A program made the translations under genes and the position numbers. Positions 21,918 through 30,490 of a stretch of DNA of 39,259 bases are shown here, piece after piece. The notes beneath the pieces were generated by a model. It saw nothing but the letters and a program-made list of their open reading frames with translations, searched no databases and had not been told where the DNA came from. Source of the stretch: Campylobacterota bacterium (lineage in GTDB: Bacteria; Bdellovibrionota; Bacteriovoracia; Bacteriovoracales; Bacteriovoracaceae); assembly GCA_003650125.1 (NCBI GenBank), contig QNFX01000019.1:1-39259 (forward strand). Reading direction: 5' to 3'. How positions within the stretch are numbered: the stretch's first letter is position 1; each line of letters opens with the position of its first letter.

Positions 21918-22211
21918 ATGGATGAGAGATACTACGTTCCTAAATTGAATTATCGCGATACAAGTAAAACGCAATCGGGGCAGATATACCGAGAACTTCA
22001 GCAGACTCGTATCGATATGAATTACAACGCTGAAAAATTAAATGAATCTTTAAGGCCAAAAAGAGATTTAGATTCACCCTATCTTTCAGATCGAGAAGGT
22101 TACACTCCAAGAATTAAAGGTTCACTGGATGAAGGGAATTGGAAGTATGTACCACCTCTTCCTCAAGAGAAATTTGTTTACCTAAATATGAGAAAACTAG
22201 ATATTGTTTAA
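21918..22211 (+). CDS. Small hydrophilic protein of unknown function
   Basis: A 97-residue protein rich in Tyr, Arg, Asp and Pro, with no membrane segment, signal peptide or cysteine. It looks partly disordered. The ATG is preceded immediately by TTAGGG, a poorly spaced ribosome site, and a TATATT hexamer lies at 21887-21892 without a good -35. It lies 60 bp after the hydrolase and 48 bp before the bufferin-like gene. I recognise no family. Codon use and the uninterrupted frame make it a likely gene, but a functional link to either neighbour is not shown. Confidence 0.55.
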   Translation: MDERYYVPKLNYRDTSKTQSGQIYRELQQTRIDMNYNAEKLNESLRPKRDLDSPYLSDREGYTPRIKGSLDEGNWKYVPPLPQEKFVYLNMRKLDIV

Positions 22212-22232
22212 TGGCATCTCCTCTGATTTAAT
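22204..22232 (+). promoter_or_regulatory. Candidate promoter of the bufferin-like operon
   Basis: TTGTTT (22204-22209), 17 bp, TTTAAT (22227-22232), predicting a start near 22239 and a 20-nt leader carrying AAAGGAG. The -10 sits inside an imperfect palindrome running from TGATT (22224-22228) to AATCA (22244-22248), centred on GGCC, which could be an operator. Both elements are tentative. Confidence 0.35.
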
Positions 22233-22259
22233 TGGCCATATTTAATCAAAGGAGAAATT

Positions 22260-22517
22260 TTGAGTACAAAAGCAATATTGGCAGGAGCTGCATTAACAGG
22301 ACTACTTTTGGGGATGAGTGGATGTTCATCATCTTCAACCAACTCAGGTAGTGAAGTTGTTGGTGAGTGTCATGGGATGAACTCTTGTAAGTCGACTGGG
22401 GCCTGTGGTGGAAAAGGTCATTCCTGTGCAGGGCAAAATAAATGTAAAGGTCAGGGTTGGTTAAAATTATCCAAGAAAGACTGCCTAGCTAAAAAAGGTA
22501 CCTTTAAAGAACAATAG
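22260..22517 (+). CDS. Bufferin-like Cys-rich precursor peptide, lipoprotein type
   Basis: An 85-residue peptide. The signal sequence ends in a lipobox-like GMSGC with Cys22, followed by a Ser-rich spacer. The core has six cysteines (37, 43, 49, 56, 62, 75) in two related units, C-H-G-M-N-S-C-K and C-A-G-Q-N-K-C-K-G, then GQGW and a terminal DCLAKKGTF. This C-x-G-x-N-x-C-K pattern is the one I associate with precursors encoded next to DUF692/MNIO enzymes. Characterised bufferins are periplasmic peptides whose cysteines are converted to thiooxazoles and which buffer copper. The start is TTG with a strong AAAGGAG 5 nt upstream. Export plus a predicted lipid anchor would place it on the envelope. 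The metal and the modification are inferred from the neighbours. Confidence 0.85.
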   Translation: MSTKAILAGAALTGLLLGMSGCSSSSTNSGSEVVGECHGMNSCKSTGACGGKGHSCAGQNKCKGQGWLKLSKKDCLAKKGTFKEQ

Positions 22518-22534
22518 ACTAAAGGCCAGCTATT

Positions 22535-22558
22535 ATGATTTTATACGCCAATGTGTAA
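22535..22558 (+). other. Seven-codon micro-ORF overlapping the DUF692 gene start
   Basis: ATG at 22535 followed by six codons (M-I-L-Y-A-N-V) and a TAA at 22556-22558, in a different frame from the DUF692 gene, whose ATG is at 22551. AAAGG lies about 9 nt before the micro-ORF ATG, whereas the DUF692 ATG has no ribosome site of its own at a normal distance. Ribosomes finishing the micro-ORF could restart at the enzyme gene. It may equally be a chance frame. Confidence 0.3.
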
Positions 22559-22568
22559 CATTGGCGTA
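22544..22568 (+). promoter_or_regulatory. Perfect 10-bp hairpin over the DUF692 start codon
   Basis: TACGCCAATG (22544-22553), a 5-nt loop and its exact reverse complement (22559-22568). The last three bases of the left arm are the ATG of the DUF692 gene. No T-run follows, so it is not an intrinsic terminator. It would hide the enzyme start in the mRNA and could protect the upstream peptide message from 3' decay, giving more precursor than enzyme. Confidence 0.65.
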
Positions 22569-23369
22569 GGTCTTAGGGCCGAGCACTATTCATATCTGGA
22601 AGCAAGGCCTCAAACTGAGCTCAAATGGTTTGAGGTTATTTCAGAAAATCATCTTAATTCTAGAGGAAGACCGTGGGAAATTCTCCATACTATGCGAGAA
22701 AAGTTCCCTCTTTCTTTTCATGGTGTATCTCTAAATATAGGCTCTTATGCTCCTCTAGATTTTGAGTATTTAAAAAAATTAAAATATATGATTGAAGTTT
22801 TTGATCCTTTTCGTGTTTCGGATCATCTATGCTTCACTGGCGTTCCAGGGGCCAATATTCATAATCTATTACCCTTGCCTTATAATGATAAAACGCTAAT
22901 TCACCTCACTGAAAAGTTAGATCAGGTTCAATCATTTTTAGACAGACCTTTTATTTTAGAAAACCTCTCGGCCTATATAGATTTTCAGGAATCGACTTAT
23001 ACTGAGTGGGAATTTATAAAAAAATTAGTTGAAAGGTCGGGCTGTAAAATTTTATTAGATGTGAACAATATCTATGTAAATGCAGTTAACCATAAATTTG
23101 ATCCTAAGATTTATATTGATCATATCCCCAAAGATAAAATTGAAGAGATCCACTTGGCCGGTTATTCCGATATGGGTGATTTTTTATTTGATACACATTC
23201 AAACCCCGTATTTCCTCCAGTATGGGATCTCTTTTCTTATGTCATAAAAGATTTAAAAGATGTTCCAGTTTTAATTGAATGGGATGATGATATTCCAGAA
23301 TTTGCCCGTCTAGAAGCAGAGGCCTTGAAAGCAAAAAAAATATGGGAGTCTCACCATGCTCGGAATTAA
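22551..23369 (+). CDS. DUF692 / MNIO-family peptide-modifying enzyme (BufB-like)
   Basis: A 272-residue TIM-barrel protein of the multinuclear non-heme iron-dependent oxidative enzyme family. Recognisable segments in order are IGVGLRAEHY (start), WFEVISENH, SFHGVSLNIGS, RVSDHLCF, LENLS, LLDVNNIYVNAVNH, EIHLAGY, FDTHS and IEWDDDIP. The His, Glu, Asp and Asn in these are the usual iron-cluster ligands. Characterised members modify cysteines of a partner peptide, for example to thiooxazoles or oxazolone/thioamide groups. The adjacent Cys-rich peptide is the obvious substrate. The ATG at 22551 fits the family start but has no ribosome site and lies inside a perfect hairpin. It overlaps the next gene by 14 bp. 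Confidence 0.93.
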   Translation: MCNIGVGLRAEHYSYLEARPQTELKWFEVISENHLNSRGRPWEILHTMREKFPLSFHGVSLNIGSYAPLDFEYLKKLKYMIEVFDPFRVSDHLCFTGVPGANIHNLLPLPYNDKTLIHLTEKLDQVQSFLDRPFILENLSAYIDFQESTYTEWEFIKKLVERSGCKILLDVNNIYVNAVNHKFDPKIYIDHIPKDKIEEIHLAGYSDMGDFLFDTHSNPVFPPVWDLFSYVIKDLKDVPVLIEWDDDIPEFARLEAEALKAKKIWESHHARN

Positions 23370-24120
23370 GAGCTCACAGGTACTTTTAGGCAAAAGTATT
23401 CTTACGGGAAATCCATCAGAAGATCTGCTTAAAAATATTATTCCTGGTGGGAAGTTAGACAAAAAAAGAGCTCTTGAAGTTTACCATGATGATTATGTGG
23501 CAAGACTTAGCTCGGTAATGGCGGATAACTTTGAGGGAACTCATGCTTTTTTAGGTGAGGAACTATTTTTCGCACTGTGTCTCGAGTATCTAGACCACTA
23601 CCCATCCACTTCTCCAGATCTAGGTGAGTATGGAAAATACCTAGATAAGTTTATGAAAAATCACGACTTGGGTAAGGAATATCCCTTTTTACCGGAACTT
23701 TGCAGATTAGATATGGAGTTTATGCGCCTTTTTCATTTGCCCAAGGAAAAAAAGATAGACCCCGATAGGTTAAAGGCCCATGAGAATTTGTCTCTGGCCA
23801 AGTTTACATTAGTCAAGGCCCTCTACTTGCAAAAGTCTAAGTATCCAATATATAAAATCTGGGACTTGAAGAACCTTTCAGACGCTGAAAGGGAGGACGT
23901 AGAACTAGATTGGAGTGGGGCCGAAAATTTTTGTCTATATAAAAATATGGATGGAATTAAGGTGCAATTTTTAACTCCAGAGCAAGTGGATGTCCTTGAG
24001 AAAATAAAGCTAGGCCTTAACTTAGACTCAGCTTTAGAAAACTCAGAGATTGATCCTCTAAGAGTTCAGGAATTATTTGGATTTATTTCTACTAGTGGAA
24101 TCTTAATAGATATTATTTAA
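23356..24120 (+). CDS. DUF2063-type partner protein of the MNIO enzyme (BufC-like)
   Basis: A 254-residue protein. The N-terminal region (about 30-110) matches the DUF2063 pattern: a YxxxYxxRL segment (here VYHDDYVARLSSVM), a bulky FEGTHAFLG turn, and LCLEYLDHYPSTSPDLGEYG. The remainder is less conserved, with a C-terminal segment that fits the winged-helix-like end of such proteins. In characterised systems this protein presents the leader part of the precursor to the MNIO enzyme. GGGAG lies 7 nt before the ATG. It overlaps the enzyme gene and is followed after only 4 bp by the E1-rhodanese gene, so the bufferin genes and the thiamine genes probably share a transcript. Confidence 0.87.
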   Translation: MLGIKSSQVLLGKSILTGNPSEDLLKNIIPGGKLDKKRALEVYHDDYVARLSSVMADNFEGTHAFLGEELFFALCLEYLDHYPSTSPDLGEYGKYLDKFMKNHDLGKEYPFLPELCRLDMEFMRLFHLPKEKKIDPDRLKAHENLSLAKFTLVKALYLQKSKYPIYKIWDLKNLSDAEREDVELDWSGAENFCLYKNMDGIKVQFLTPEQVDVLEKIKLGLNLDSALENSEIDPLRVQELFGFISTSGILIDII

Positions 24121-24124
24121 AATT

Positions 24125-25171
24125 ATGACCTTTAATGAGCACGAAAAAAAACGTTACAAAAGACACCTACTTCTTTTAGAATTTGGTGCCAAGGGACAGG
24201 AATGTCTCAAAAACTCCAAAGTATTATTGGTAGGTCTTGGGGGACTAGGTTCCCCAATAGCGCTTTATCTGGCAGCGGCCGGAGTGGGAACTTTAGGTTT
24301 GGCCGACTTTGATAAGGTGGATTTATCAAATCTTCAAAGACAAGTTCTCTTTAATGAAGATGACATTGGAAAAAGTAAAGCAACGACTGCAGAGAAAAAG
24401 CTCAGCAAAATTAACTCAACGATTGAGTTGAAAATTATTTTAGAAAGATTAGATGCTAGTAATATCCAAAATATTATTAAAGATTTCGATCTAGTAATTG
24501 ATGGCTCCGATAATTTTGCTACGAGGTTCTTGGTTAATGATGCTTGCGTTTTTTTAAAGAGGCCTTTTCTTCACGGTTCGGTTCATAAATTTTCCGGACA
24601 AATTGGATTATTTCTAGCAGATGAAAAAGCACCTTGTTTGAGGTGTCTATATCCTGCTCCTCCCACTGAAGGTGTTGGTAACTGTTCTGAGGTAGGAGTT
24701 CTTGGAACTATGACTGGTATGATTGGAACTCTGATGGCCTCTGAGGCGATTAAGTTTTTAACCTCTGTAGGAAAAAATATTTCAGGAAACCTTTTAGTCT
24801 ATAATGCCTTAGAAACAAGTTTAGACAAATATTCTCTGGCCAGAGATGAGAGTTGTCCTATTTGTAGTGAACATGCCTCAATCAAAAATTTAAGGTCAGA
24901 AACGCTCGTTCCATCAATTACCAGGGAAAAAATCGAAAAGGATTTTGTGATAATTGATGTGAGAGATAAATATGAGTTTGAGGCCTTTAATATTGGAGGA
25001 GTTCATATTCCTTTGTATGAACTGGAAAGTCGTTTATCAGAACTAGATAAAGAAAAAACCATAGTCGCGCTATGTCAGCTAGGGCAACGAAGTATGTCCG
25101 CGTGCGCAATTCTTAAGCAAAATAATTTTAACTCAGTTTATCACCTTGAGGGTGGTCTTGATGCCCAGTAA
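24125..25171 (+). CDS. thiF: ThiF/MoeB-type E1 adenylyltransferase fused to rhodanese
   Basis: A 348-residue protein. The N-terminal E1 domain (about 1-245) has the ATP-binding GLGGLGSP, the DFDKVDLSNLQRQ strand, VIDGSDNFATR, and two CxxC pairs (CLRC, CPIC) for zinc. The C-terminal rhodanese domain (about 255-345) has an active-site loop CQLGQRS with the catalytic Cys. It should adenylate the C-terminal Gly-Gly of ThiS and pass sulfur to it as thiocarboxylate. Context with thiS and thiG favours thiamine, although MoeB-rhodanese proteins also serve molybdopterin and a shared role is possible. No ribosome site is visible; coupling to the upstream gene is likely. Confidence 0.9.
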   Translation: MTFNEHEKKRYKRHLLLLEFGAKGQECLKNSKVLLVGLGGLGSPIALYLAAAGVGTLGLADFDKVDLSNLQRQVLFNEDDIGKSKATTAEKKLSKINSTIELKIILERLDASNIQNIIKDFDLVIDGSDNFATRFLVNDACVFLKRPFLHGSVHKFSGQIGLFLADEKAPCLRCLYPAPPTEGVGNCSEVGVLGTMTGMIGTLMASEAIKFLTSVGKNISGNLLVYNALETSLDKYSLARDESCPICSEHASIKNLRSETLVPSITREKIEKDFVIIDVRDKYEFEAFNIGGVHIPLYELESRLSELDKEKTIVALCQLGQRSMSACAILKQNNFNSVYHLEGGLDAQ

Positions 25172-25174
25172 TAG

Positions 25175-28048
<2,874 letters not shown>

Positions 28049-28065
<17 letters not shown>

Positions 28066-28246
28066 TGGAAGTGATCAAAAATTGGAAGTAAAAACCGTAG
28101 AGGAACTTCTAGTTCACCTTGATAAAAAACCAGCGTTTTTAGCGGTTGCGGTTAACAAAGTTTTTGTGCCAAAAAATAAATATTTTGAATACACATTATT
28201 TGAAGGTGACCGGGTAGAAATTGTTACCCCTCACCCTGGAGGCTAA
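28049..28246 (+). CDS. thiS: Sulfur carrier protein ThiS
   Basis: A 65-residue ubiquitin-like protein ending in the required Gly-Gly (HPGG), preceded by the [15 protein letters not shown] signature. Its C-terminus is adenylated and thiocarboxylated by the E1-rhodanese protein encoded upstream and donates sulfur to ThiG. GGAGC lies 5 nt before the ATG, within the end of thiO. Confidence 0.95.
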
Positions 28247-28248
28247 TT

Positions 28249-29043
28249 ATGTGGGAATTATTTGAAAAATCTTTAAAAAGTAGATTACTCCTTGGAACTT
28301 CTAGATATCCATCTCCTGAAGTTTTAAAAAAATCCATTCTTTCTTCTAATGCGGGAATCATAACCGTCTCGCTTAGAAGATCTTCGGGAGGAGAGGGCAA
28401 CCCTTTTTGGGAAATGCTTAACTCTCTTGGAGTTCAAGTGCTACCTAATACGGCCGGATGTCATAGTGTGAATGAAGCTGTAACTACAGCGCAAATGGCG
28501 AGGGAAATTTTTGGTACCAATTGGCTTAAGCTTGAAGTCATTGGTGATGATTACACACTTATACCTAATCCATCTGCTCTTGTAGAGGCCGCAGAAATTT
28601 TATGTAGAGATGGTTTTGAAGTTTTTCCCTATATGACAGAGGACTTGACCCTGGCAGAAAAGCTTTTAGAGGCCGGTTGTAAAATACTTATGCCTTGGGC
28701 CTCTCCAATTGGTTCAGGACAAGGAATTGTTAATCCTCTTGCGCTTAAAACTCTAAGAGAAAAGTTTCCTGAAGTGCCCATGGTGGTTGATGCCGGAATC
28801 GGTTCACCTTCCCACGCCGCCCACGCTATGGAGCTAGGTTTTGATGGAGTTTTATTAAATACCGCTGTGGCAACTAGTTTAGATCCAATTAAAATGGCCA
28901 GGGCCTTTGCTTTAGCAATTGAAGGGGGAAGAGAGGGATATCTTTCTGGCATAATGGAACAAAGAGATTTTGCTCATGCCTCAACTCCAGTCGTGGGTAC
29001 TCCTTTTTGGCATAATGAGAGGCGAGATGACTCATCCCAATAG
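28249..29043 (+). CDS. thiG: Thiazole synthase ThiG
   Basis: A 264-residue TIM-barrel enzyme that builds the thiazole phosphate from deoxyxylulose phosphate, the glycine imine and ThiS thiocarboxylate. The Schiff-base lysine lies in LKLEVIGDD, followed by [26 protein letters not shown] and [15 protein letters not shown] lies 6 nt before the ATG. It overlaps the thiD-thiE fusion by 17 bp. Confidence 0.97.
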
Positions 29044-30490
29044 AAGGTTCTTTGATTTAAAACCAGTTGTTTGCATTGGCGGTTCTGATTCTAGTTCTGG
29101 AGCAGGAATTCAAGTAGATATGCGGGCCTTAGCTGCTTTGGGGATTCCCTATAAAAATATCATTACCTCGGTAACCTCTCAAGAGGATGGAACATTTTAT
29201 CATCAAGAGGAAATATCTTCAAAATCATTAAAAGCTCAGGCCCAAGCGGTCTTAAAAGAAGAGAGTATCGTTAAAATTGGTATGCTAGGAAGCTCACTTA
29301 AAATTTTGGATGAGATTTTAAAAAATAGAAAGGACACGATCATTTTAGATCCTGTTTTATTTTCTAGTTCCGGTGCCCCTTTGTTTAGAGCTGATGATTT
29401 GAAGTTGCTTAAACAATTTCTAGCAAAAGTTATGCTAATTACCCCAAATATTCTAGAGGCCGAAACTTTATGGGGAAAATCAATTGAGACAACCTCTGAT
29501 GTTGAAAAAGCGGCAAAATACATAAGAACTCTGGGGGTGAAAAATGTCTTAATTAAAGGCGGACATCTTAACTTTTGTGGTGACTATTTCTTGGGTGAGC
29601 AGAGTTTTTGGATAAAAAAACAAAAAATAAATAAAAGTAATGTGAGAGGAACAGGTTGCTTTCTCGCTTCCTCAATCGCCGGGGGATTATCTCTAGGACT
29701 CAATATTTTAGATAGCTTAGTGATGGCACAAATTTTTCTTCATAAAAGTTTTCGAAATGCTTATAAACAGGGAGATTTTTATTATTTAAACCCTGAACCC
29801 TTTCACCAGAATTTAAAACCTGAAGATATGCCATGGATTCAAGATAGTTTTGAGGACGCGATTTCTTTTTCAGAGTTTGCCTTAAAAAATAAAACTACTC
29901 TCTATCCCATTGTGGATCGGGCCCATTGGATTAAAGACCTTGCAGGTGCCAGGCCTTCCTTGATTCAACTTAGGATTAAAGATCTTGCAGGTGTTCAGTT
30001 AGAGCTAGAAATAAAAGAGGCGATCCGCCTTTCAAAAGAGTTGGGGATATCCCTTTTTATTAATGATTTTTGGCAGTTGGCAATAAAATATGGGGCCTTT
30101 GGGGTCCATCTAGGACAAGAAGACCTGGCAGATGCCGATATAAACTTATTGAGGGAAAAGGGTATTAGATTGGGAATTTCCACCCATTGCTACTTTGAGG
30201 CCGCGCGGGCCCAAGCTATCAGACCTTCCTATATTGCCTTTGGCCCTATTTTTCATACCGCTCTTAAGGCCATGGATTTTGCACCCCAGGGGCTTGAAAA
30301 TCTTAAGTTATGGAGAGATCTTTTCGAGCTTCCGTTAGTGGCCATAGGAGGAATTAACCTAGATCGAGGTACCGCCGTAGCTAAAACTGGGGTCGATATT
30401 ATCTCTGTGGTGAGAGATATTCTCCTAAACCCCACACCCCTAGGGCAGGCCCAGGCCTGGAAGTCCAAAATTGGTGAGCAAATTCACTAA
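29027..30490 (+). CDS. thiDE: Fused HMP(-P) kinase / thiamine-phosphate synthase (ThiD-ThiE)
   Basis: A 487-residue bifunctional protein. The ThiD half (about 1-255) has [34 protein letters not shown] and the catalytic loop [15 protein letters not shown]. The ThiE half (about 285-487) has [44 protein letters not shown] and VAIGGI. Together they phosphorylate hydroxymethylpyrimidine and join it to the thiazole to give thiamine phosphate. The ATG at 29027 was chosen because GAGAGG lies about 5 nt upstream and the residues before it do not fit the family. It completes the thi set; thiL, dxs and iscS are not in the window. Confidence 0.94.

Follow-up and report, generated by a model that had tools for sequence, protein, structure and literature searches.

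The closest described systems are the bufferin-2 (Buf2) clusters, in which a precursor with a Sec signal and six core cysteines in CxGxNxC units is encoded with an MNIO (BufB) and a DUF2063 partner (BufC) in the order A-B-C. According to a 2025 survey (PMC12452194), Buf2 bufferins contain six cysteines in 90% of cases and twelve in the rest, Sec signal peptides accompany PME type 1 partners, and about 16% of Buf2 bufferins carry predicted lipoprotein signal peptides. MNIOs with a PME1-type partner have been argued to install 5-thiooxazoles, giving products that bind copper (PMC13097082), and another article states, citing other work, that the Sec signal doubles as the leader in bufferin biosynthesis (PMC13419390). 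A 2025 preprint (PMC12636315) demonstrated that two peptides, DybA and the oxazolin NedA, are lipidated as well as MNIO-modified, and listed predicted SPII bufferins. The original prediction for the locus analyzed here held that described bufferins are all soluble and that membrane attachment would make this one novel; the survey and the preprint speak against this view. Bdellovibrionota and Halobacteriovorax are not mentioned in the main text of the survey, and a literature search joining bufferins with Bdellovibrio retrieved no report.

We analyzed a 39,259-nucleotide stretch of DNA (the window) from a bacterium whose predatory lifestyle is suggested only by its sharing a family with Halobacteriovorax. 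Judged from its sequence, positions 22260-24120 on the forward strand are a complete bufferin-2 cluster, BufA2-BufB-BufC, of the standard three-gene kind. As originally predicted, three open reading frames lie here: bufA (22260-22517, + strand, 85 aa), encoding a BufA2 (Buf2) bufferin precursor; bufB (22551-23369, + strand, 272 aa), encoding an MNIO (DUF692) bufferin maturase; and bufC (23356-24120, + strand, 254 aa), encoding a DUF2063 partner protein (PME type 1) and overlapping bufB by 14 bases. A-B-C is the gene order in many linked relatives, and all three genes are intact in a close relative (locus L005) at 80-90% identity. HMM, structure-model, and comparative evidence concur with the original proposal that the MNIO system here is complete, of the bufferin type, and equipped with a lipobox precursor. 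We consider it very probable that this bufferin-2 cluster yields a lipid-anchored product.

The cluster reveals no new kind of system, and it differs from the usual Buf2 cluster in few respects. A lipobox replaces the SPI site, as in the roughly one-sixth of Buf2 bufferins so predicted in PMC12452194; no DoxX gene was found among the neighbouring open reading frames scanned around bufABC, and thiamine genes come after it. The scanned neighbours also included no copper gene. NedA from Neisseria dentiae and DybA, whose lipidation was seen by mass spectrometry (PMC12636315), resemble the present precursor in pairing MNIO modification with an SPII signal, both of them predicted for BufA; their core motifs (EGKCG repeats or CPACGMG) are unlike its Buf2 core. 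The methanobactin system MbnABC likewise has an MNIO and a partner acting on cysteines, and its product binds copper, as that of the present cluster may do. MbnA has no Sec signal according to PMC12452194, unlike BufA, and BufB scored 44 bits against the MbnB model, far below the cut-off of 325.

bufA starts with TTG behind AGGAG at 22250-22254; in L005, which has a BufA 82% identical, the start codon is ATG. BufA matched the NCBIfam model NF050166 (BufA2) with E 6.3e-16 and 58.3 bits, 1.7 below the curated cut-off of 60, and so did every one of the 11 sequences in the BufA alignment match this model. In translation, cysteines occur at residues 22, 37, 43, 49, 56, 62, and 75. Cys22 is the lipobox cysteine, and the remaining six (37 to 75) form the core, are invariant in the 11-sequence alignment, and include two CxGxNxCK units, in agreement with the core first described. 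A DNA pattern for CxGxNxCK had two exact matches in the 2.61-Mb assembly, both of them the units of bufA, and the reversed pattern, used as a control, had one match. With its BufA2 profile match and these two units, the Cys-rich core (22368-22484, + strand) is presumably where thiooxazoles would form and metal would be bound. In the test for Buf1 (DUF2282), no Pfam match was obtained within the BufA peptide, and no DUF2282 was found in the genome. The structure model of BufA, with a mean pLDDT of 57.5, was of poor quality and was set aside.

The two proteins encoded downstream had been predicted to belong to the DUF692 and DUF2063 families, and both assignments were confirmed by profile searches. 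BufB matched NF050167 (334.2 bits, E 4.7e-100, cut-off 310) and PF05114 (328.5 bits, E 3.5e-98, cut-off 25), and its PDB relatives are 3bww, TglH, and MbnB. Across 46 BufB sequences, H57, D91, H92, E137, D170, N172, N173, H201, D214, H216, and E243 are invariant; several of them lie where BufB aligns with 3bww, TglH, or MbnB, and by analogy the invariant residues are putative metal ligands. BufC matched PF09836 (DUF2063; 53.3 bits, E 3.6e-14, cut-off 27.2). A PDB sequence search with BufC gave nothing significant, and we therefore compared folds. The AlphaFold2 model of BufC (pLDDT 89.2, pTM 0.82) matched TglI (8hci_A), which is the partner protein of the TglHI complex (8hci, 8hi7), as well as NGO1945 (3dee), a protein of the DUF2063 type, with TM-scores of about 0.5-0.6, which support the fold class and not the details. 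This fold match to TglI and NGO1945 suggests an RRE part in BufC.

A predicted lipoprotein signal peptide with a lipobox (MSTKAILAGAALTGLLLGMSG, cleaved before C) occupies 22260-22325 (+ strand), the Cys22 codon being at 22323-22325. It is followed by a Ser-rich stretch (SSSSTNSGSEVVGE; 22326-22367, + strand), without Asp after the cysteine, which would serve as a tether between the lipid anchor and the core. The lipobox-like end and Ser-rich spacer of the original prediction are thus found in the translation. We used a PROSITE PS00013-type rule (Cys at 15-35, six preceding residues uncharged, Lys or Arg near the start); BufA matches it at Cys22 (MSGC), with Lys4 in the n-region, and the call is based on this pattern together with conservation. 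The residue at -3 is Met; at this position of lipoboxes, Leu is commoner than Met. Cys22 is invariant in 11/11 aligned sequences, which were picked among lipobox forms, so that its invariance shows a fixed place and not frequency. In the same alignment, the spacer between Cys22 and the core varies in length and sequence among relatives, with the flanking cysteines fixed. Lgt is matched twice in the genome and LspA once. Asp follows the lipobox cysteine in none of 25 lipobox forms; in E. coli, lipoproteins without Asp at this place go to the outer membrane, a rule that may not hold in Bdellovibrionota. Because of the lipobox match, the invariance of Cys22, the presence of Lgt and LspA, and the occurrence of lipoboxes in other BufA2 peptides, membrane anchoring of BufA is likely.

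Among the 31 readable BufA2 peptides of the bacterial family, tallied by hand, 18 conform to the lipobox rule and 13 do not; by this simple pattern, the lipobox form is the majority in the family. Two Nitrospirales and five myxobacterial BufA2 peptides also conform. The 13 others, several of which end in AxA-type sites, would fit a different account of BufA, in which the peptide is exported by Sec and cut by signal peptidase I to give a soluble periplasmic bufferin, Cys22 being incidental; the bufferins studied experimentally are indeed soluble periplasmic peptides. However, such an account does not explain why Cys22 stays fixed while the spacer after it varies, an AxA-type site is absent just before the core of BufA, and relatives of the soluble type do without that cysteine. 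An instance of this last point comes from genome G115, in which two bufferins, one with a lipobox and one without, are encoded about 1 kb apart upstream of one BufB, with GGCSAM in the lipobox form and GGYSAHA in the soluble-type form (locus L060, 2303-2620 and 3363-3686). We regard a soluble BufA with an incidental Cys22 as improbable.

The surroundings of the cluster raise another alternative. Genes for a ThiF-rhodanese protein, thiC, thiO, thiG, and thiD/E follow bufC at 24125-30490, with a bufC-thiF gap of 4 bases, an arrangement seen only in this genus. Since bufABC lies directly upstream of these genes in both the window and L005, and a rhodanese gene (99 aa) also adjoins the partner gene of a second BufB-BufC pair in the genome, the cluster might have been taken over for, or tied to, thiamine synthesis. 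The thi linkage was seen in this genus only, however, and not at the other linked bufferin loci; moreover, L005 has conserved, intact copies of bufA, bufB, and bufC, and the precursor cysteines are invariant. We give a role in thiamine synthesis very little credence. An Rfam search at gathering scores turned up neither a riboswitch nor any other known RNA ahead of bufA or the thi genes. A possible but doubtful hairpin at 22217-22255 (+ strand), with the bufA ribosome-binding site (AGGAG) in its 3' arm, has an MFE of -12.4 to -12.9 kcal/mol and a shuffle z of -1.4 to -1.8; among 23 folded bufA leaders it is alike only in the window and L005, and with such weak scores we make no claim for it. 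Before bufA, a 97-aa open reading frame of unknown family (21918-22211) has a counterpart in L005 (81%) and another upstream of bufA in L034 (42%).

In the reading that we prefer, a lipid-anchored bufferin, BufA2 would be made in the cytoplasm and bound by BufC, probably via its signal peptide. BufB, as a multi-iron oxygenase, would turn some of the six core cysteines into thiooxazoles, as inferred from members of its family. Sec would export the peptide, Lgt would put a diacylglycerol on Cys22, and LspA would cut before this residue. The Ser-rich spacer would keep the metal-binding core away from the membrane, which is probably the periplasmic face of the outer membrane, and the anchored core may protect the cell by binding copper or a different soft metal. 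Thiooxazole formation and copper binding are proposed by analogy; lipidation, the membrane concerned, the metal, and the benefit to the cell are presumed as parts of the preferred reading. If correct, it would support the idea that bacteria put modified metal-binding peptides at a chosen layer of the envelope.

A tree of 46 BufB proteins requires four or more switches between partners with and without a lipobox, a rough count because many deep forks are poorly supported. These results place lipobox bufferins firmly in Bdellovibrionota and indicate that the lipobox, far from being the oddity of one gene, is conserved as a trait and has changed repeatedly. The lipobox and soluble forms provide natural pairs for testing the effect of anchoring. 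Ten loci of the family (L041, L042, L043, L045, L046, L047, L048, L049, L055, and L060) encode bufferins with eight-cysteine cores containing an extra CxGKxGC-type unit, in contrast to the six or twelve cysteines given for Buf2 in PMC12452194. Elsewhere in the family, Cys-rich candidate precursors of a different type, with KCG/GKCG-like repeats, immediately precede MNIO genes (L053:1171-1479, L073:2303-2554, and L075:2306-2650).

The second BufB-BufC pair of the genome is located at L004:8513-10422 (G000:C4:70512-72421). BufB2 is 74% identical to BufB and scored 341 bits against the BufB model, and BufC2 is 55% identical to BufC. In the BufB tree, BufB2 groups beside the BufB proteins of the window and L005 with support of 100/99, as if the gene had been duplicated within this lineage. 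Upstream of the pair, an ABC-F-type ATPase is encoded instead of a precursor, and no further BufA2, no further CxGxNxCK site, and no DUF2282 precursor was found in the genome, the assembly of which is about 93% complete. In another genus of the family (g4), the contigs that carry the precursor genes are likewise not those with BufB-BufC, so such separation is nothing unusual; PMC12452194, too, reports precursors encoded away from MNIO genes. The precursor-less pair, the lipobox/soluble switches within one family, the tandem pair, and the eight-cysteine cores are new details. A broader proposal, which we hold tentatively and think rather unlikely as a whole, is that the family's bufferins form two location classes, anchored and soluble, that were repeatedly switched, occur side by side in one relative, and act as a two-site metal buffer, and that the second BufB-BufC pair acts either on BufA or on a substrate elsewhere that has escaped recognition. 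A few genes upstream of this pair, L004:13796-15562 encodes, in the same orientation, a fusion of a NarK-like transporter with a DoxX domain, adjoining a hemerythrin gene.
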